Origin: Saprospiraceae bacterium
Lineage (GTDB): Bacteria > Bacteroidota > Bacteroidia > Chitinophagales > Saprospiraceae
Direction: 5' to 3'
DNA length: 40,543 nt
NCBI GenBank assembly: GCA_029263015.1
Contig: JAJCYI010000111.1
Coordinates: 1-40,543, forward strand
Part shown: piece after piece, positions 6,334 through 40,543 of the stretch
How positions within the stretch are numbered: the stretch's first letter is position 1
Layout: every line of letters begins with the position of its first letter
Position numbers and translations under genes: made by a program
The notes under the pieces: generated by a model
What the model was told of the DNA's origin: nothing
Database searches by the model: none
What the model saw: the letters and a program-made list of their open reading frames with translations, nothing else

Positions 6334-8580
6334 ATGGCAAATAGTTTAATGATGATGATTCCAGTAATGGGTGTATTGGCCTTGTTGTACACATTCTGGA
6401 AATCTTCCTGGGTAACAAAGCAGGAAGTTGGAACAGAGCGCATGGGCAGGATTGCCAACAATATTGCCGACGGTGCAATGTCATTCCTTAAAGCTGAATA
6501 CAGGGTATTGGCAATTTTTGTAATAGCTGTTGCCATCCTTTTGGCTGTCAGTGGAAACACCGCTAATTCTTCCCCATTGGTAGGTCTTTCATTTGTAATA
6601 GGTGCAATCTGCTCTGCATTGGCAGGGTTCATCGGAATGAAAGTAGCCACAAAAGCAAACGTGCGTACCACTAACGCTGCTCGCACAAGCCTTGGAAAAG
6701 CACTTGAAGTGGCTTTTGCCGGCGGCGCAGTAATGGGGCTTGGCGTAGTCGGCCTCGGCGTTTTGGGGCTTGGCTCTTTGTTCCTCATTTATTCCGGCAT
6801 AGGCTGGGAAATAAATAAAGTGATAACCGTTATTACGGGTTTCTCTTTCGGGGCATCTTCCATCGCCTTGTTCGCCCGTGTGGGCGGCGGTATTTATACC
6901 AAAGCTGCTGACGTGGGCGCTGACCTCGTGGGAAAAATAGAAGCAGGCATTCCTGAAGATCACCCGCTCAACCCTGCAACCATCGCCGATAATGTTGGCG
7001 ACAATGTGGGTGACGTGGCCGGTATGGGTGCCGACCTTTTTGAATCATTTGTCGGCTCTATCATTGGTACAATGGTCCTTGGAGCGGCATTTATCCTTAC
7101 CAAAGACGTGGACGGAAATATTGTCTCTGGGGCGCTGGGATTTGAGCAAGGCAACGATTTTAGTGGCCTCAATGCAGTGCTGCTGCCATTGGTTTTGGTG
7201 AGTATCGGTATCGTTACTTCGATCATCGGTACTTTCTTCGTGAAAGTAAAAGAAGGCGGCGACCCGCAAAAAGCTTTGAACAGGGGCGAGTTCTTTTCTT
7301 CTGGCCTGATGCTGGCCGCAACTTTTGTTGTTGTGAAATGGATGTTGCCGGAGACTTGGAGCATGGGCGGTGTTGAGTACAGTTCGATGGGTGTTTTTTA
7401 CGCCGTTATTTTTGGTCTGGCAGGCGGACTTTTCATTGGTATGATTACTGAATATTATACGGGTACGGGTACGAAGCCAGTGCAAAGTATTGTTGACCAG
7501 TCAGTTACGGGTTCTGCAACTAACATCATCGCCGGCCTCGGCGTGGGCATGCAATCGACTGCTATTCCAATCTTGATTTTGGCCGTTGCTATCATCGGTT
7601 CTTATTCTTTTGCTGGACTTTACGGCATCGCCATCGCTGCGGTGGGAATGCTTTCCAATACGGGCATCCAATTGGCAGTCGATGCTTACGGGCCAATTTC
7701 TGATAACGCAGGTGGCATCGCCGAAATGGCGAACCTGCCCAAAGAAGTCCGTGGCCGTACCGATAAATTGGATGCAGTTGGAAACACGACTGCTGCTATC
7801 GGAAAAGGTTTTGCCATCGGCTCTGCTGCCTTGACGGCATTGGCATTGTTTGCGGCATTTATCACTGCTTATAACTTCAGCCATCCTGATGCCCAATTAG
7901 GAGCTATCGACATTACGAACCCATATGTAATGGCCATGATGTTTGTTGGTGGCATGTTACCCTTCTTGTTTTCTGCCCTATCAATGGGTGCGGTCGGACG
8001 TGCTGCGATGGATATGATACAAGAAGTTCGCCGCCAGTTTAAAGACATTCCTGAGCTGAAAGCAGCTCTTGCAGTGATGAAGAAAAATGACGGTAAAGAA
8101 ATGTCGGAATGGAGTGCTGCCGATCAAAAAACTTTTGATGCTGCAGACGGAAAACCTGAATATGGCAAATGTGTGGAAATCTCTACCGCTGCTTCCATCC
8201 GGGAGATGGTCCGTCCGGGACTTTTGGCAGTGCTTGCCCCTGTGGTAGTTGGTATTACACCCGGCCTGCTCGGCATCGGAGAGGGTAGCAAATTGGGCGC
8301 TGAAATGTTGGGTGGCCTCTTGGCAGGCGTAACGGTCTGCGGTGTGCTCATGGCGATCTTCCAGTCCAATGCCGGAGGTGCTTGGGACAATGCCAAGAAG
8401 ATGTTCGAGGAAGGTGTCAAAATTGGGGGCGAGACTTTTTACAAAGGTTCTGAGCCGCACAAGGCAGCCGTTGTTGGTGATACGGTTGGCGATCCATTTA
8501 AAGATACTTCTGGCCCATCACTCAACATCTTGTTGAAATTGATGTCGGTGGTGGCTTTGGTGATTGCGCCATTGCTTTAA
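6334..8580 (+). CDS. hppA: Membrane-bound ion-translocating pyrophosphatase (K+-dependent type)
   Basis: 748 residues, about 16 membrane segments. It hydrolyses cytoplasmic pyrophosphate and pumps H+ and/or Na+ out of the cytoplasm. The pyrophosphate/Mg2+ site is intact: DVGADLVGK (193-201), then [32 protein letters not shown], and near the C-terminus [22 protein letters not shown]. The motif [10 protein letters not shown] at 483-492 has Ala487 and Gly490, the pair that marks K+-dependent enzymes (K+-independent ones have Lys and Thr there). Whether it moves Na+, H+ or both is not decided here. There is an insertion of about 45 polar residues before [11 protein letters not shown], as in other Bacteroidota. 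The gene ends in a strong terminator. Upstream is a 350 bp spacer with a candidate promoter. Confidence 0.96.
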
Positions 8581-8638: not shown

Positions 8639-8670
8639 GTTTATTTAGTAGAGTAAAATTAATAAATTTG
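8637..8670 (+). promoter_or_regulatory. Predicted promoter of the MTase-DUF262-HEPN cassette
   Basis: TAAATTTG at 8663-8670 fits TAnnTTTG exactly; TTG at 8637-8639 lies 23 bases upstream, a somewhat long spacing. Transcription would start near 8677, which argues for ATG 8692 and against TTG 8668 as the start of the methyltransferase. Confidence 0.4.
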
Positions 8671-8691
8671 CGTAATTGCAAAAAAAAGATC

Positions 8692-9750
8692 ATGTCGATA
8701 CCAAAAAGTCGAATTGTCAAAGTTGTGGATTTGTTCTGCGGTGTTGGAGGACTGACTCATGGATTATTTAAAGAAGGATTCAACGTTGTAGCTGGCTACG
8801 ATTTAGACGAAGCTTGTAAATATCCATACGAAGCGAACAATAAATCAACCTTCTTTAGGCGAGATATTGTAGATGTTTCAAGTAAGGAAATTAATGCGCA
8901 CTATAAGAACTGCGATATAAAAATATTAGTAGGCTGTGCTCCGTGCCAACCTTTTTCTACTTATTCTTATAAAACTGCGGATAAAAATAAATGGCAATTG
9001 CTAGGTCATTTTGCAAGGCTTATTCAAGAGATTCAGCCTGATATTGTTTCGATGGAGAATGTTCCACGGCTGGCTAAATTTACTAAAGAACCTATTTTTA
9101 AAGAATTTTTAGAAACCTTGAATAACAACGGCTATAATTGTTCTTACAAAATAGTTAACTGTCCTGATTATGGTATTCCTCAACATAGGAAAAGGTTAGT
9201 ATTATTAGCTTCTAAATTTGGAAAAATTTCATTAATTCCTGAGACCCATGACCAAGATAGTTATAAAACTGTCAAAAATGCAATTGGAAAACTTGAACCA
9301 CTTAAAAGTGGCGAGGTTTCAAAAAAAGATTCTTTACATAGGGCTGCCAAACTTTCTGAATTAAATCTAAAAAGAATAAGACAATCAAAGCAAGGTGGAA
9401 CTTGGAAAGACTGGGACGAAAATTTGGTATTGGAATGTCATAAAAAGCCTTCTGGAAAAACCTATGTTAGTGTTTATGGTCGCATGAGTTGGAATGAGCC
9501 TGCGCCAACTATAACTACTCATTGTACAGGAATTGGAAATGGAAGATTTGGCCACCCTGAACAAGATAGAGCAATTACTTTACGAGAAGCTGCAATTTTA
9601 CAATCGTTTCCGAAAGGATATAAATTTATAAAACCAAATGAAGACTTTAAAGTAAAAACAATTTCGACTCATATCGGCAACGCCGTTCCGGTTACGTTAG
9701 GCAGAATAATTGGAAAAAGTATTAAGAAGCACTTAAAAAATATAAACTGA
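8692..9750 (+). CDS. DNA (cytosine-5) methyltransferase
   Basis: 352 residues from ATG 8692 (an upstream in-frame TTG at 8668 overlaps the predicted -7 box). It transfers a methyl group from SAM to C5 of cytosine in DNA. All catalytic motifs are present: DLFCGVGG at 13-20 (motif I, SAM binding), PCQPFS at 84-89 (motif IV, nucleophile C85), ENV at 122-124 (motif VI), QHRKR at 164-168 (motif VIII) and HIGNAVP near the end (motif X). The target-recognition region between VIII and IX (about 200-270) is rather short and lysine-rich, so the sequence recognised cannot be read off. The gene starts a three-gene unit: the DUF262 gene begins 13 bp after its stop. No classical restriction endonuclease is adjacent. 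The unit is visibly more A/T-rich than hppA, suggesting acquisition by transfer. Confidence 0.95.
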   Translation: MSIPKSRIVKVVDLFCGVGGLTHGLFKEGFNVVAGYDLDEACKYPYEANNKSTFFRRDIVDVSSKEINAHYKNCDIKILVGCAPCQPFSTYSYKTADKNKWQLLGHFARLIQEIQPDIVSMENVPRLAKFTKEPIFKEFLETLNNNGYNCSYKIVNCPDYGIPQHRKRLVLLASKFGKISLIPETHDQDSYKTVKNAIGKLEPLKSGEVSKKDSLHRAAKLSELNLKRIRQSKQGGTWKDWDENLVLECHKKPSGKTYVSVYGRMSWNEPAPTITTHCTGIGNGRFGHPEQDRAITLREAAILQSFPKGYKFIKPNEDFKVKTISTHIGNAVPVTLGRIIGKSIKKHLKNIN

Positions 9751-9763
9751 TAAAATCATTGAA

Positions 9764-10837
9764 ATGGATACTTATCAACAAGGAGAATTGTTTCCAAAGT
9801 TTACACCGGAACAACAGGATCAGGCTGAATCTCAAATAATAAAAGAACAACAAATAGTTGATTATGAAATTCGTGAATATCCGATTGAAGTTATAGTTCA
9901 AAAGTATTTAGACGGAAAAGGAGAAAACAATAATGAAATATTTATCCCTAAATATCAACGTAAATATGTTTGGAAACAAAATCAAGCTTCAAAATTTATT
10001 GAATCAGTAATGCTTGGTTTGCCCATACCTTATATTTTCACGGCAGATAATGAAGGAAGAATGGAGGTTGTTGATGGTTCTCAAAGGATAAGAACTATTT
10101 TTTATTTTATGAAAAACCAACTTGAACTAAGTGGTTTGAAAAAATTAAATAAACTTAATGGGTTTAAGCATAAAGATTTACCTTTAATTAGGCAAAGGAG
10201 GTTTAATAAAAAGACTTTAAGGATAATTGAATTAACCGAAAAAGCAACATTAGAGGTTAGAAAAGATTTATTTGAAAGGATAAATACTACGTCCACAAAA
10301 CTAACGGATATGCAAGTAAGGAGAGGTGTATATGAAGGAAAATTTAATGATTTTATTAAAGAATGTGCTTCTAATGTTAAATATATAATTCTTTGTCCTA
10401 TTAGTAAAGCTAAAGAAGCTAAGGATGATAGATTAGAAATGGTTTTAAGGTTTTTTGCTTATTCTGATAACTACCTAAAATTCATCCATTCAGTGAAAGA
10501 CTTTGTTGATGATTATATGAAATCAAAGCAGAATAAATTTGATGGTGAAAAAATGGCGGAAGATTTTGAAAATATGTTAGATTTTGTTGAAACATATTTC
10601 CCACATGGTTTTAAGAAGACTACTGGTTCGAAAACTACTCCGAGAGTTAGGTTTGAGGCAATTTCAGTTGGTGTGCATTTAGCATTGAAAGAGAACCCGA
10701 ATTTAACCCCACAACCTGTGTTTGATTGGTTGTATTCAGAAGAATTTATGAAGCATACAAAATCAGATGCTGCAAATAATAAAAATAAAGTTATTGCCCG
10801 GATCGAGTATGTTAGAGATAAATTATTAGAAAAATGA
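9764..10837 (+). CDS. DUF262 domain protein (GmrSD N-domain/ParB-like fold), without a DUF1524 nuclease domain
   Basis: 357 residues. The N-terminal half carries the DUF262 signature: IPKYQRKYVW (61-70), ESVMLGLPIPYIF (80-92) and VDGSQRIRTI (103-112), where DGxQR corresponds to the nucleotide-handling DGQ(Q/R)R motif of the ParB/Srx-like fold. DUF262 is the N-terminal domain of the type IV restriction enzyme GmrSD and of several defence proteins such as BrxU and SspE. The usual C-terminal HNH domain (DUF1524) is absent: residues about 200-357 are helical with no H-N-H pattern visible. Its stop overlaps the start of the HEPN gene by four bases (ATGA), so the two are translationally coupled. 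The likely role is an NTP-dependent sensor or regulator in a methylation-linked defence unit. The fold is known, the role inferred. Confidence 0.88.
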   Translation: MDTYQQGELFPKFTPEQQDQAESQIIKEQQIVDYEIREYPIEVIVQKYLDGKGENNNEIFIPKYQRKYVWKQNQASKFIESVMLGLPIPYIFTADNEGRMEVVDGSQRIRTIFYFMKNQLELSGLKKLNKLNGFKHKDLPLIRQRRFNKKTLRIIELTEKATLEVRKDLFERINTTSTKLTDMQVRRGVYEGKFNDFIKECASNVKYIILCPISKAKEAKDDRLEMVLRFFAYSDNYLKFIHSVKDFVDDYMKSKQNKFDGEKMAEDFENMLDFVETYFPHGFKKTTGSKTTPRVRFEAISVGVHLALKENPNLTPQPVFDWLYSEEFMKHTKSDAANNKNKVIARIEYVRDKLLEK

Positions 10838-11511
10838 GAAACGTAAAACGAGATTTCAATGATCGAGTAAATGAAATAAATATTTATTTTACATTTTTAG
10901 AAAATGTAATGATAAAAGGTGGTAATATTATTTATCCCGACAAATCAATTGATACATTAACCCCTGATCTAAATAAGATATTCAGGGCGAACTCTTTTTT
11001 GTTATTGTATAACTTATGTGAGTCATCTATTAAAAATGCAGTTGAAGAAATTTATTTTACTCTAAATAGAGAAGGAGTTAGTTTTGATGATTTAAAAGAG
11101 GGTATAAAAATAGAAATAATAAAATTTTTGAAAAGCAATATAAATGCTTCTGATTTTGTATCTTCGATAAACAATATTGCACCAGAAATAATACTAAAAT
11201 GTTTTGATTCTGAAAATTTTTTATCAGGAAATATTGATGCAAAGTCAGTTAGAGAAATAGCTAATAAATATGGTTTTTCGCATCTAACAAATCCAGAAAT
11301 TACTAAAAGTGGCTTCCATCTCAGAACAGTAAAGAGTAAAAGAAATGAATTGGCGCACGGAATTTTTTCATTTAAAGAATGTGGAAAGGATTATTCAATT
11401 CAAGATCTGATTTCAATCAAAAATGAAGTTGTAGAATACCTAAAGCAGATATTAAATAATATAGAGGCATACCTTGCCGCTAAAGACTATTTGGTTTTGT
11501 CAACAATGTAA
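10834..11511 (+). CDS. HEPN-domain protein, MAE_28990/MAE_18760-like (predicted RNase)
   Basis: 225 residues, almost entirely helical. The HEPN catalytic signature Rx4-6H is R170-NELA-H175 in KSKRNELAHG, preceded by the helix ending NPEITKSGFHLRTV. The N-terminus (VKRDFNDRVNEINIYFTFLENV) and the overall length match the MAE_28990/MAE_18760 family of HEPN-like nucleases, which are known as neighbours of DUF262 proteins and DNA methyltransferases. HEPN proteins of this kind typically dimerise to form an RNA-cleaving site. It starts inside the DUF262 stop codon (4 bp overlap). The inferred role is the effector or toxin of the cassette. No terminator follows; the convergent FadL-like gene ends 46 bp downstream. 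Confidence 0.8.
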   Translation: MRNVKRDFNDRVNEINIYFTFLENVMIKGGNIIYPDKSIDTLTPDLNKIFRANSFLLLYNLCESSIKNAVEEIYFTLNREGVSFDDLKEGIKIEIIKFLKSNINASDFVSSINNIAPEIILKCFDSENFLSGNIDAKSVREIANKYGFSHLTNPEITKSGFHLRTVKSKRNELAHGIFSFKECGKDYSIQDLISIKNEVVEYLKQILNNIEAYLAAKDYLVLSTM

Positions 11512-25284: not shown

Positions 25285-26088
25285 TCAAAATAAGGTCATC
25301 TGTTCAGGAGCTGTCTTTTTGATAATTAACTCTCCAAAAGAAGTCCAATCTTTTTTTGCTATTCCCAATAAAGATTTTTTAATAAAATTAAAATCAATTA
25401 ACTCATAAGCTTTACTGAAATCAATTCTCATTAAAATATCTTTTGTGATTGACCTTTTAGAATCAGGGAAAATTATCGATTTTAAGAATTTTTGAACATC
25501 TCCTGAATTTAGTAGAAAATGGGCAATTTTCGCATGTTTCAAATTGTCAAAACCAATAAAATAACAGGTGTCATCTAACATAATTGGTTTTTCATTGTCA
25601 GGTAAAATTAATGTAAAATGAGTGGTCTTGTACATTCCCGAAATTCCGATTTTATAATAGGCAAACGAATAATCACCAATACCAAAAATTGAAAAATCAG
25701 GTTTCCCTTTATAAATTGTGGATTTTCGCTTTTCAAAAAAATCTTTGTTTTTTCTGAGGTATTCAAAAGTTAATGGGAAATCCCGTTTTATATATTTTGT
25801 GTCTTGGCCTATCTTCTTTTGAGTGACGATAGTTGATTTTCTATAATTGTTTGTTTCTGTTTCTTTAAGGTCAGAACTTTTAAGAAGTCCAAAAATTAAA
25901 TCTTTTTCAAAAAAAATTTCCTCTTTAAATCCATTTATATAATGCCCATTGAATTTTTCAAACTCCATTATTTTAGAGCAATCGTGTTTTATTCCTTGCC
26001 TCCAAATAAACTGCGATTTCCCGTCAATATCGTTAGCAGAATCATACTCCGAAACTGAATAGACTTGTTCTTGCGTGATAATCAGCAT
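25285..26088 (-). pseudogene. C-terminal part (target-recognition half) of the IS-split N6-adenine methyltransferase
   Basis: 267 residues if begun at ATG 26088. The reading frame is open and runs across the left inverted repeat of the IS, so the first codons (MLIITQEQVY) come from the element. From S-V-S-E-Y-D onwards it is the original protein. It contains the TRD phrases of Eco57I/TaqI-type enzymes: FGIGDYSFAYYKIGISGMYK, MLDDTCYFIGF, HFLLNSGDVQKFL, and FPDSKRSITKDILMRID. The catalytic half is at 27053-28024. Removing 26061-27054 and one AAT restores one 580-residue frame. A separate product could exist (see findings), otherwise it is a pseudogene fragment. Confidence 0.88.
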
Positions 26089-26114
26089 TTTATGTAATTT
26101 TGCATAAAAAAACA

Positions 26115-26462
26115 ATGCACTATTTAGAAATAAATTCCGAACGCCAATTTAAAGATGCCACTGGATACAGCAAGAATAGTTTTTCAGAATTATTGAAAGA
26201 TTATAAAAAAACCTTTTTTGAAGAATATGGACAAAAATATGAAGAATACATAAAAGAAGAAGCGATCACCCTTCCAAAGCTCAAAACATTGGGGGAATGT
26301 TTGTTTTTTGTATTGTACCAATTAAAGAACGGGCTGATATGGGGTTCTTTGGGCTTTACATTCGGGATGGCGGGATCATCGGCCCATGGTAATTTCAAGG
26401 TTTTTTTGGGCCTCCTTGAACTGACACTTGAAAAAAAAAGTGATGCCCAAAAGAAAGTTTGA
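26115..26462 (+). CDS. IS5-family transposase, N-terminal frame (orfA)
   Basis: 115 residues from ATG 26115. N-terminal helical region FKDATGYSKNSFSELLKDYKK, then a helix-turn-helix-like stretch TLGECLFFVLYQLKNG followed by GFTFGMAGSSAHGNF, the typical first domain of DDE_Tnp_4 transposases. The frame ends at TGA after the A9 run at 26431-26439; the continuation lies in the other frame. Read alone it lacks the catalytic domain. Confidence 0.8.
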   Translation: MHYLEINSERQFKDATGYSKNSFSELLKDYKKTFFEEYGQKYEEYIKEEAITLPKLKTLGECLFFVLYQLKNGLIWGSLGFTFGMAGSSAHGNFKVFLGLLELTLEKKSDAQKKV

Positions 26463-27033
26463 GGGGCCCACTGAATTTGAAAAACATTTGAAGGGTGTTG
26501 ACGAAATTATTTTCGATGGTTTTGAGAACATGACCGAACGCCCACAAGGATATGAGGACCAGAAAGTTAAATATAGCGGAAAAAAAGGTACACATACGGA
26601 CATCGCCCTTTTGATGTCGGACAAACGGACATGGATATATTATGTCAGCGACTTCTATGACGGCAGCAATGTTGATTTTGGGCTGTTCAAAAAGGAATTC
26701 CCGCCGGGGAAGGGATGGTTCAAAAAAAAGAAAATAATAGTTGACCTCGGTTTTCAGGGCATTGAAAAATTATACGAGGCCAGGGAAATTATTATTGGAG
26801 AAAAAAAACCAAGGAAATCAGAAGGAAACCCAAAACCTGAACTTGCCCCTGAACAAAAAGAACGGAACAGGGAAGTCAGCAGGGAAAGAATATATGTCGA
26901 ACATGCGATAGGAAGGTTAAAAAGATTTCGCATTCTAAAAAACAGGTGCAGGTTAAAATGTCAGAATTTTAAAAACCAAATTATTGGAATATGCGCTGGG
27001 CTTTGGAATTACGAATTAAATTTAAATAATTGA
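26428..27033 (+). CDS. IS5-family transposase, catalytic frame (orfB)
   Basis: The DDE catalytic part, starting after the overlap: DEIIFDGFENMTERPQ holds the first Asp, VKYSGKKGTHTDIALL the conserved KGTHT segment, IIVDLGFQGI the second Asp, and RIYVEHAIGRLKRFRI the Glu. No ATG suits a separate start well (TTG 26428 or ATG 26443), so it is probably expressed as a fusion with orfA. Joining requires the loss of one A in the A9 run (26431-26439), as by transcriptional slippage; at the protein level the join would read TLEKKVMPKRK. A sequencing error or inactivating mutation in the homopolymer is the alternative. Confidence 0.82.
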   Translation: MKKKVMPKRKFEGPTEFEKHLKGVDEIIFDGFENMTERPQGYEDQKVKYSGKKGTHTDIALLMSDKRTWIYYVSDFYDGSNVDFGLFKKEFPPGKGWFKKKKIIVDLGFQGIEKLYEAREIIIGEKKPRKSEGNPKPELAPEQKERNREVSRERIYVEHAIGRLKRFRILKNRCRLKCQNFKNQIIGICAGLWNYELNLNN

Positions 27034-27052
27034 TTCTCATGCCCGAACAAGT

Positions 27053-28024
27053 CTAATAAACGAATTTACTTTTATACCATCCAAATGTTGTTCGATTATT
27101 TAAAGAATAGAAATCAAATTCTTTACAAAGATATTCAGGTTCTTTATTGAGATTGGTTATTAAAAGGGATGCATCTACAGAAACATTAAATTCTTTTTTT
27201 GAATCGATATTTAATTTTTCAATATTCCCGATCCTGTATTTTTTATTTTGTTGGCAGTTTATTATGTTTTTTACAACAGAACTTTTGACCAAGAAAGCAA
27301 ATATTCCGTTGTGTTTGTCAAAATGATCGAGCATCAAAAGTGAAATATATTCTCCTATATCAAAATTTCCTTTTCCAGTGATTGCATCAAGGCCACTATG
27401 TTTTTTAAAATTAGATTTTTTTGGCAAATTGTCTGAACCAATCGAACCCAATTCAGAATTAGTTACCCAAGGCGGATTTCCAATAATTAGTGTATTTAAT
27501 TGTTCAGTTTGTTTTGATAAGCCTTTATAGGGAAATTCAAAAGTATTGGCATGTTTGATTTCAATGTCAGGGGTGGTAGCAGAAGGGTTTTGAATAAAGT
27601 AATTCAATATCCTGAATTTAGTTTCCCACACATAAGGTTGATAAATTTCTATGCCAACTATTTTTTTAATAGATTTTAATTTATTAAGAGAGGCAATGAT
27701 AAAACTTCCTTTCCCGCAAGTTGGCTCTAAAATAAATTCTATTATAACTTCTTTTTCTGAAACGTACTTTACAACCTTATTTGCTAATTCATCATTTGTT
27801 TGGTAATCACCATACTCTCTTCTATTTGGTTCTTCAACCTTTGAATGTTGTTCTTGGATTGTTCGTCGTAATTCTATAGTGTCACTTTGGCTATTAAAAA
27901 AATTTGTGATCCCACATTTATTTTTAATAAAGGAGTTAGCTTTTTCAAGTGAATTTAATTGTTGTAAGTTGGCACTTAAGAAAGAGATAACCGAATCATT
28001 AATATGTGCTTCAAAATAATTCAT
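27053..28024 (-). pseudogene. N-terminal (catalytic) part of the IS-split N6-adenine DNA methyltransferase
   Basis: 323 residues ending VY and then a TAG made by the IS tip. Gamma-type N6-adenine methyltransferase motifs: YGDYQTNDELANKVV (71-85), SAM-binding EPTCGKGS (100-107), catalytic NPPW (183-186), and FDIGEYISLLMLDHFDKHNGIFAFLVKSSVVKN downstream of it. In type II systems this enzyme protects the host DNA against its partner endonuclease. The missing target-recognition half is at 25285-26060. The gene start overlaps the endonuclease stop by four bases (ATGA), so endonuclease and methyltransferase form one operon with the endonuclease first. The break lies close to the expected boundary between the catalytic and recognition domains. 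Confidence 0.9.
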
Positions 28025-28668
28025 TCATTTATTTTATCTACCAGTTTAGAAATCCCTTCAATTTCACCTGCTAAACTTACAATTCTTGCATATTGTAGTC
28101 TCCACTGTAAAGCATTGGAAATGGTTAAATACCCTTGTTTTGGTTTTTTGGCCATGATATTTTTAGCAATCAACGCAAGAGTGATTTCATCAGCAGGTAT
28201 ATTCTTGTCGTTGAGATAGGCAATTATATCCTCAATATTAGCACCATCCTTTATCATTTCTCTTAGCCTAAAAGTAGTGGTAAAGTCAGCCGTTCTTTCC
28301 TTTTCAAGAAAGGAACAACTCACAAAATTAAGAGTGGCAGTTCCTGTTTCAGCGTTATCATTTTTATCATAAACGAACACAAGTAAATTGTACCCCAATC
28401 CGAATATTTTCTGTTTAGCATCCTTGAATGGGCAAGAAGATTGTGGTTGTTTAATCGAAGTAACTTTTATATCAGTTTGGATAGTATCACCCGGTAAATC
28501 TATCCCTTTTGCATAAGAACCTTTATCATAATCAAATTGGTTTTTGAGGTATTTCTGAAATTTATGTTCAACATAAGTTCCGACCGCCTTGCCATCTGTT
28601 ACGCCATACAATTCTTTGTTATTATAAATTGATTCTATTCCACAAAATTTTTTTGCTGCTTCTTTCAA
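28021..28668 (-). CDS. Type II restriction endonuclease (PD-(D/E)xK-like), partner of the split methyltransferase
   Basis: 215 residues as an open frame starting at TTG 28668. A PD-(D/E)xK-type core is visible: E34 in TYVEHKFQKYL, D57 in KGIDLPG and D66-I-K68 in TDIKVTS, followed by a strand (YNLLVFVYDK). The position, coupled to an N6-adenine methyltransferase by a 4 bp overlap, supports a restriction endonuclease. The recognition sequence is unknown. There is no ATG at the expected start: the only upstream ATG in frame (28710) is followed after one codon by TAA, and no internal ATG occurs before the core. The start is therefore TTG, or the gene has lost its start. Confidence 0.78.
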   Translation of the reverse strand: MKEAAKKFCGIESIYNNKELYGVTDGKAVGTYVEHKFQKYLKNQFDYDKGSYAKGIDLPGDTIQTDIKVTSIKQPQSSCPFKDAKQKIFGLGYNLLVFVYDKNDNAETGTATLNFVSCSFLEKERTADFTTTFRLREMIKDGANIEDIIAYLNDKNIPADEITLALIAKNIMAKKPKQGYLTISNALQWRLQYARIVSLAGEIEGISKLVDKINE

Positions 28669-28864
28669 AAATTCTATTGTCAGGTTTTTTTTTATCTTTT
28701 TTTAATTCATTTAGAGGGTTCAAAGTTCGTTCTTTTATGTACGACACCCAACTGTTTCGTTAATGTCGACAACCATAAATCAAAAACTTTCCTACCTTAC
28801 CGTTTCGTTTTTTTCCTGCCTGATACCAAATCAAAACCCAAACAAGCTTAAATTACTTGAAACA

Positions 28865-39128: not shown

Positions 39129-40543
39129 CAGCAATTCTCGCTATTAGCGAAAAATAAATATGGCCTATTCGAGCAAAGGAAAATCAATTTTGATTTCTCT
39201 TGCGATGAATCGATAAATAACGTTCATTGACAAACAAGGCAATAAATCAAATACTTGACGAGTCTTTTCCCAAAGTTTTTTCTTGGTTTTACAATATTTC
39301 CAAGCCTTTTTGAAATCCAAATCTACCCTTTGGGCGATTTGGTCAGTAAGAAAAGCCAAGAAAGTTAGGAGCATGAAATTAGTCGCCAAATATTTTTTGC
39401 CATGCCCATAAGAATGAGTCAAGTGATATCCCTGATTTTTGAGGGTATTGAAAGTTTCATTTTCAATTTTCCAACGGCTTCGACCAATTGCAACTAATTC
39501 TTTGATTGTATCCTCGGTAATTTCAATATCTGTTATCCAACTACTGTAGAAAAGTCGATTATCTTTTGAATCAACTTCTTCATACTCAAAGAAGTTAACT
39601 TTTATATCTTGGTGTGTACCATTCAAAGGCAAGCAATTATACCATTGGGCAGTGCATTTTTGACCACTACTGCCTACCCATTCTTTTACATAAAGGGCTT
39701 TTTGTGCTTTCAACCTTTTGATTTGCACTAATACATAGCCTTCTTTAATGCCAATTACATAGCGCATATGGGCCAGACCTAAATCTTTGATAAATGGTCC
39801 ATTAGGATATAAAGCATCAAAAACACCTAGCAGTTCATATTTTTGCTTTGGCAGCATTTTGCGTACCGCTGGAATAAGCCGTTTGGCAGCATTGAGTTCA
39901 CAATCATTTTTGGTCTGTCCATCTTGTCGGATAATGGCTTCACAAGCAACTGGAAAAACTTCTTGATTACCAGGACAGGACATAACTGCGGCTAAAGCTT
40001 GATGGTGATAAGTTATTTTTGTTACTTCTCCTTTTTTATTCCGATGGACTTTAGTCAAACAATGCTGGCAAGGCGCTTTACAACTACAATAGTGTTGTGT
40101 GCCATCAAATAATATGCATTGATAGCGGCCCAAAACTTGGTAATCTTTCATTATCCCTTGATTATCAAGCTCTGCTAATGGAATTTTAAAACAGTCCTGT
40201 AATTCACTCGGGCCTACACCATCTATAGCTTCTCGTATCGCCGTATCAGATGGTAGGCTCTCAATTTGGTAGATTCGTTCCAAATTTGCTGCTCGTTCTG
40301 GATAATTTAGCCGATAATGATTCAGCGATGGGTCTTTTAAATGGAACATCGCAAAGGCACACTGCAAGTGGTTTTCCAAAGGAATTTGAGCATTTTTATA
40401 GCGGTGTTCCGACACCGACCCAAATGCTGATTTAATGCTTTGTATTAATTTGTCAACCATAAAACCGTCTCTTTTGACGGCTAAAATAAAATTTTATGCT
40501 TTTAGCTCTCATATTTATTTTTTGCTAATAGCGAGAATTGCTG
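39129..40543 (-). mobile_element. Complete insertion sequence with 33 bp inverted repeats (1415 bp)
   Basis: Left end CAGCAATTCTCGCTATTAGC (39129 onward, 33 bp) is the reverse complement of the right end (40511-40543) with one mismatch. The right inverted repeat ends with the last base of the window, so the target duplication cannot be tested. One transposase gene is inside on the minus strand. The structure shows an intact, probably active element. Confidence 0.93.
39165..40460 (-). CDS. DDE transposase (IS4/ISNCY-like)
   Basis: 431 residues. The first catalytic Asp is in ILFDGTQHY, followed by a zinc-binding-like Cys cluster CSCKAPCQHC; the second in LLGVFDALYPNGPF with the third, Glu, in RSRWKIENETFNTLKNQGYHLTHSYGHGKK (YREK-like signature RW-x-IEN-x-F). 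This pattern with HHQALAAVM and a DGQTKNDCE segment resembles ISNCY elements of the ISDol1 type, though IS4 is also possible. Full length, no disabling change seen. Confidence 0.88.
   Translation of the reverse strand: MVDKLIQSIKSAFGSVSEHRYKNAQIPLENHLQCAFAMFHLKDPSLNHYRLNYPERAANLERIYQIESLPSDTAIREAIDGVGPSELQDCFKIPLAELDNQGIMKDYQVLGRYQCILFDGTQHYCSCKAPCQHCLTKVHRNKKGEVTKITYHHQALAAVMSCPGNQEVFPVACEAIIRQDGQTKNDCELNAAKRLIPAVRKMLPKQKYELLGVFDALYPNGPFIKDLGLAHMRYVIGIKEGYVLVQIKRLKAQKALYVKEWVGSSGQKCTAQWYNCLPLNGTHQDIKVNFFEYEEVDSKDNRLFYSSWITDIEITEDTIKELVAIGRSRWKIENETFNTLKNQGYHLTHSYGHGKKYLATNFMLLTFLAFLTDQIAQRVDLDFKKAWKYCKTKKKLWEKTRQVFDLLPCLSMNVIYRFIAREIKIDFPLLE

Follow-up and report, generated by a model that had tools for sequence, protein, structure and literature searches.

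Introduction

Restriction endonuclease genes that adjoin a corrupted methyltransferase gene have been catalogued before. Ershova et al. (2012; PMC3488263) report 74 such endonucleases, 11 of them of Type II, with the neighboring methyltransferase gene corrupted by a frameshift, truncation, or premature stop. Sequencing errors and unexpressed or inactive endonucleases are discussed there, together with PaeR7I, for which deletion of the methyltransferase was not lethal. We are interested in a Type II restriction-modification (R-M) locus of a Saprospiraceae bacterium within a contig of 40,543 nucleotides, hereafter called the window. This locus belongs to the catalogued class. As in the cases of that catalog, a full-length endonuclease frame lies next to a broken methyltransferase gene, intact orthologous systems exist elsewhere, and no other copy was found. 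It differs from the frameshifts, truncations, and premature stops described there, and adds to the class, in that an apparently recent break was made by an insertion sequence (IS) with a target duplication and the start codon of the endonuclease gene is altered.

The closest relatives by sequence combine an endonuclease of the NF052465/PDLC03454 family with a methyltransferase of the PDLC03310 family. The window locus shares the gene order and the overlap or close spacing of the two genes with L041 and most of the 106 distinct loci compared here. Unlike these relatives, it has an interrupted methyltransferase gene, an ATA codon at the start of the endonuclease gene, and tyrosine instead of serine at endonuclease position 52 (S52Y). 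We did not find the locus described in literature searches that addressed R-M systems in general. A preliminary description of this DNA had presented the locus as a paradox, as an active Type II endonuclease without its methyltransferase would be lethal. On the comparisons reported below, the locus is most likely not a paradox but an ordinary defence locus that is decaying.

The Methyltransferase Gene Is Interrupted by an IS5-Family Element

The endonuclease gene is followed by a methyltransferase gene whose ATG overlaps the endonuclease stop codon (ATGA). The adjacent gamma-class N6-adenine methyltransferase is not encoded by one open frame in the window: the frame ends after 323 residues at the border of the IS, where a TAG codon was created (Table 1). 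This N-terminal part carries the sequences EPTCGKGS and NPPW, which we take to be motifs I and IV of the methyltransferase, respectively.

Table 1. Coordinates of the features of the R-M locus and of the inserted element in the window.
Feature	Position	Strand	Evidence
Type II restriction endonuclease, extent by relatives	28021..28695	-	NF052465, PDLC03454, start comparison
N6-adenine methyltransferase, N-terminal part, 323 aa	27055..28024	-	PF02384, PDLC03310 positions 6-253, frames
N6-adenine methyltransferase, C-terminal part	25285..26057	-	PDLC03310 positions 267-474
IS5-family insertion element, 994 bp	26061..27054	+	PF13359, frames, inverted repeats, AAT duplication, A run
AAT target-site copy, left	26058..26060	.	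sequence inspection
AAT target-site copy, right	27055..27057	.	sequence inspection

The preliminary description was right in presenting the interruption as an IS5-like insertion flanked by AAT. The element ends in terminal inverted repeats of 10 bases (AGACTTGTTC) and is oriented opposite to the R-M genes. Its transposase is encoded by two overlapping frames of the + strand (26100-26462 and 26428-27033) spanning a stretch of nine A. The transposase matches PF13359 above the cut-off (3.5e-25, profile search), and the NCBIfam IS5 models below their cut-offs only. The DDE transposase, the terminal inverted repeats, and the short target duplication are together those of the IS5 family. Partial end copies of the same IS are located at four other contig ends of the genome and represent the ends of two further copies, each partial copy being flanked by ATT, the 3-bp AAT target on the opposite strand. 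The ends of the window element are identical to the other copies in the genome over 137-138 bp. Because the ends are identical across several copies, the insertion into the methyltransferase gene is, as judged from these sequences, recent. The other copies stop at contig ends (C162, C166, and C178); the copy in the window was assembled through.

Scripted removal of the IS together with one AAT restores a single frame of 580 codons, in which no further lesion was seen. The PADLOC methyltransferase profile PDLC03310 (475 positions) spans the break, with its two matching segments divided between the two halves. In L041, the closest locus among the matches listed, a single methyltransferase of 580 residues aligns with both halves of the window protein at 79% identity, and the two halves are directly contiguous. 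As the preliminary description had proposed, these comparisons support the derivation of both halves from one former protein. Intact homologs of the joined protein, suggested there as a check, proved to be common: the methyltransferase is open through both halves in 91 of the 96 distinct loci with a scorable region.

The five remaining loci are the window, L026, L038, L096, and L199. The methyltransferase gene of L026 (7248-8639; genome G370) contains two nonsense codons, TAA at 8280 and TAG at 8436, and that of L096 (from 2805) is interrupted at residue 126 by a stop, with further stops close to the end of the contig. No methyltransferase was found within 3 kb downstream in L199. In the distant relative L038, the methyltransferase is in two parts that lie in different frames, parting at about 6920-6950. 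Its N-terminal frame ends just past GGW, which matches the conserved GW, and hence within a few residues of the break in the window. An apparent natural split in plasmid relatives, in which the match ends near residue 307, was rejected for the two examined, H7 and H9. In each, the endonuclease gene is followed by a single methyltransferase gene with a length of about 470 codons.

The AlphaFold2 model of the L041 methyltransferase is of good quality (pLDDT 86.4). The site corresponding to the break follows a predicted β-strand (residues 320-322) and precedes a predicted helix (residues 325-334), in a poorly conserved stretch between the conserved GW..KFV and IDG..WRQG. None of 52 relatives has an insertion at residues 321-327. 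We infer that the catalytic domain meets the recognition domain at this break. The best whole-length fold match of the model among solved structures is M.BseCI (7qw5), with TM scores of 0.58/0.61 and a sequence identity of only 17%.

ATA Takes the Place of the Conserved Start Codon in the Endonuclease Gene

The endonuclease matches NF052465 over positions 7-209 of 209 with 323.7 bits against a cut-off of 290, which places it within this family, and it also matches PDLC03454. The 215-residue open frame given in the preliminary description is indeed without an internal stop, but its first codon, a TTG (28668), lies nine codons into the gene when the extent is taken from relatives. The relatives start about nine codons before this TTG, in most cases with ATG, and then have a near-invariant LT. 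At this place the window has ATA (28695-28693), preceded three codons upstream by an in-frame TAA (28704-28702). The 5′ end reads TAA AAA AAG ATA AAA AAA AAC CTG ACA ATA GAA TTT TTG, so that no ATG, GTG, or TTG lies between the upstream TAA and TTG 28668, the first standard start downstream of the ATA.

The named loci are the best 80 of at least 542 confirmed relatives, picked by their similarity to the window endonuclease, and counts among them are not those of a random sample. After removal of 10 duplicate loci, 106 distinct loci remained, including the window. A standard start codon is found at the conserved place in 93 of the 106 loci (87 ATG, 5 GTG, and 1 TTG); in three the start is off the contig, and ten have none. 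Four of these ten lack the N-terminus, in L108 an ATG is present but offset in the alignment, and L116 and L198 are apparently frameshifted near the start. The start region is kept with the codon missing in three loci only, namely the window, L111, and L051. L111, which is the sole other ATA locus among the 106, has an internal stop in the endonuclease gene and a TTG four codons after the ATA. The L051 endonuclease deviates at three columns of at least 98% conservation (G22E, T31I, and P80S).

The residues D57, D66, and K68 emphasized in the preliminary description, and likewise E34, are each identical in all 101 loci reaching the position, window included. Position 52, five residues before the conserved D57, is tyrosine in the window only and serine in 100 of the 100 other loci that reach it, and S52Y is the one departure of the window from columns conserved at 98% or more. 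At least one departure from highly conserved columns is present in 33 of the 106 loci. We rejected relaxed selection on the body of the endonuclease, which has not evolved unusually fast. The window and L041 endonucleases share 79.5% identity, compared with an average of 83.2% (sd 4.4) in 42 pairs with 75-80% methyltransferase identity, and both are about equally distant from five outgroups.

The start codon and S52Y suggest that restriction may be silent in the window locus. The ATA (28695-28693) comes down to a single base of a single draft assembly. Weak initiation from ATA is possible in E. coli, and TTG 28668 could also serve as the start. The paradox of the preliminary description assumes a normally expressed endonuclease, which is doubtful because ATA replaces the start codon and S52Y is present; the disruption of the methyltransferase gene and the origin of its halves from one protein stand. 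Among the ways out of the paradox named in that description, a silent endonuclease has gained support from the two sequence changes, and a second methyltransferase has found none at the family level, as only the two halves match the family model in the assembly.

Paired States of the Two Genes Among Relatives

We compared the states of both genes across the relatives. Ten loci with a methyltransferase cut by the contig end (five of these without interruption up to that end) and three with the endonuclease start off the contig were left out. L108 was entered with an ATG start and L096 with a damaged methyltransferase. The methyltransferases of L043, where N separate the two genes, and of L194, whose methyltransferase gene contains 10 N, were entered as intact. 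Many records are metagenome-assembled, and single stops or frameshifts in these counts may be errors in either direction. The methyltransferase is intact in 91 loci, three of them with off-contig endonuclease starts; the endonuclease is damaged in eight of the other 88 (L039, L051, L109, L111, L116, L193, L194, and L198). Among the five loci without an intact methyltransferase, the endonuclease is damaged in three (L038, which lacks the N-terminus, L199, and the window) and undamaged in L026 and L096. The one-sided Fisher test gives p = 0.011 when the window is counted and 0.057 when it is omitted, the latter not significant at 0.05.

The cutter may thus usually be lost before the protector. 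The trend is weak, and such an order is not a rule because L026 and L096 keep an ATG-started, open endonuclease beside a damaged methyltransferase. G370, the genome of L026, yielded no further copy of this methyltransferase family. We also observed the reverse state in L194 (G515), L109, L111, and L193, where the endonuclease is represented by a match of the first 39 residues, or shows a stop or frame change, beside an open methyltransferase. An apparent fusion of endonuclease and methyltransferase in L043 (same record as G535) was dismissed, being actually a run of 100 N.

Acquisition of the Module and Other Methyltransferases of the Host

The host genome is a 6.95-Mb draft of 245 contigs, in which the locus is flanked by GreA-like and GMC genes. 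These two genes are neighbors without R-M genes in 2 of 13 same-genus genomes (G404 and G402); the remaining 11 showed no GreA-like gene within a distance of 1.5 kb. The open methyltransferases of the relatives G410, G395, and G403 share only 51-58% identity with the N-terminal half in the window. G395 corresponds to L097 and G410 to L045, with identical endonuclease DNA (a same-genus and a same-family genome). Five neighbor proteins of the window have no match beside the R-M loci compared. Because the flanking genes adjoin without R-M genes in G404 and G402, the methyltransferases of relatives are distant, and the neighbors are unmatched, the module was probably acquired horizontally.

A profile search found no second PDLC03310 copy in the 245 contigs, where only the two halves match. 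Genome-wide, 13 other loci match the four methyltransferase families searched, with PrmC (C87) excluded and C5 methyltransferases outside this search. The other gamma enzyme to match a Type II profile at full length is encoded in C89, but the profile is a different one and the enzyme has its own HNH neighbor. A D12-family methyltransferase gene of the same genome (L162; G000:C237:10179-10907) contains two in-frame TGA codons and is located downstream of a SMODS nucleotidyltransferase gene.

A Decaying R-M Module and Its Alternatives

We consider it fairly probable, at somewhat better than even chances, that the window contains a horizontally acquired Type II R-M module in decay, in which restriction was silenced first and the methyltransferase was lost later. 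The module has the endonuclease gene first and the overlapping N6-adenine methyltransferase gene second. With ATA at the start, efficient initiation would have been lost and restriction silenced, and the selection keeping the methyltransferase would then have gone. The later IS insertion would have been harmless because silenced restriction had ended that selection, and the endonuclease frame would still be open simply since the decay is recent. Against such decay, the body of the endonuclease evolves at an ordinary rate, and departures from highly conserved columns are common among the loci. The proposed events would provide a concrete order for losing a toxin-antidote-like module without host death: the cutter is silenced at its start, and the protector may then be destroyed. 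The comparison of start codons also indicates that openness of the frame, taken by itself, says little about whether a solitary endonuclease is active.

An active endonuclease would be tolerated if another host methyltransferase protected the same or an overlapping site. Such "separated" partners were predicted for 57 of 272 solitary endonucleases by Ershova et al. (2012; PMC3488263). Candidates are the 13 other methyltransferase-family loci of this genome, one of them with two in-frame stops, and the C5 enzyme in the window. None of the 13 belongs to the PDLC03310 family, a weak objection as an overlapping specificity may come from another family, and C89 has a different profile and an HNH neighbor; we regard this protection as unlikely. 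Slightly less likely is a methyltransferase working as two chains, a catalytic N-terminal half and a recognition half started within the IS, where an ATG (26088-26086) would open a 267-residue C-terminal half with an IS-encoded leader. The predicted position of the break, between strand and helix in a poorly conserved stretch, would suit two chains, and complementation of split C5 methyltransferases is reported in PMC3404938. As the frames of L038 part near the same place, a break there may have arisen at least twice, yet the L038 break reads more easily as decay because its endonuclease lacks the N-terminus. The 91 of 96 scorable loci open through both halves and the 52 relatives without an insertion at 321-327 also argue against two chains, and translation of the C-terminal half would have to be initiated separately, past an oppositely oriented IS. 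An endonuclease that is made but depends on its methyltransferase for activity would accord with the non-lethal methyltransferase deletion of PaeR7I, noted in PMC3488263, and with the open endonucleases beside damaged methyltransferases in L026 and L096. We find this quite doubtful, as there is no sign of such dependence in the endonuclease family, and ATA and S52Y would be left as a coincidence.

Still more doubtful is that the IS made a working two-chain gamma-class methyltransferase as a step toward the M and S subunits of Type I systems, with the start-weakened endonuclease keeping the pair viable; the frame break of L038 would then be a second instance. Also very improbable is a mixed population, in which the site is empty in some cells and only one of the versions entered the assembly. 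The ends of two further identical copies imply that the element may be mobile, but no contig carries an uninterrupted copy, although an assembler could collapse one, and the insertion-bearing cells must still survive. An assembly or sequencing error, with the IS misplaced or the ATA a base error, could be imagined in a draft whose contigs are broken at other copies of the IS. It is nevertheless the most improbable of these explanations, since halves of one protein bordered by a perfect AAT duplication are unexpected from a misjoin, an argument that is silent on the ATA.

Recognition Site and Other Features of the Window

Absence of sites from the genome was ruled out for any six-base palindromic site: none of the 64 such palindromes is absent from 436 kb of the genome, the fewest being eight occurrences of CGTACG. 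TTCGAA is ninth by under-representation z-score, with eight lower, and site avoidance therefore allowed no inference on specificity. The NspV specificity (TTCGAA) was set aside as a lead only, since it derives from the label of a single annotated plasmid gene and the match of that gene is to the methyltransferase rather than to the endonuclease. The model of the endonuclease is poor (pLDDT 68.6, with residues 49-78 below 50). No fold matched it with an E value of 0.001 or below; the weak matches, at E values of at least 0.3, include SfiI, MvaI, and BcnI.

A C5-cytosine DNA methyltransferase gene (PF00145) is followed closely by genes encoding a GmrSD_N protein and an HEPN protein of the MAE_28990-like type at 8668-11511 (+), a group that constitutes a second modification/defence cluster in the window. 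Near the contig end, a second transposase-like gene (39165-40460, -) matches PF01609 weakly, with 23.2 bits against a cut-off of 23.
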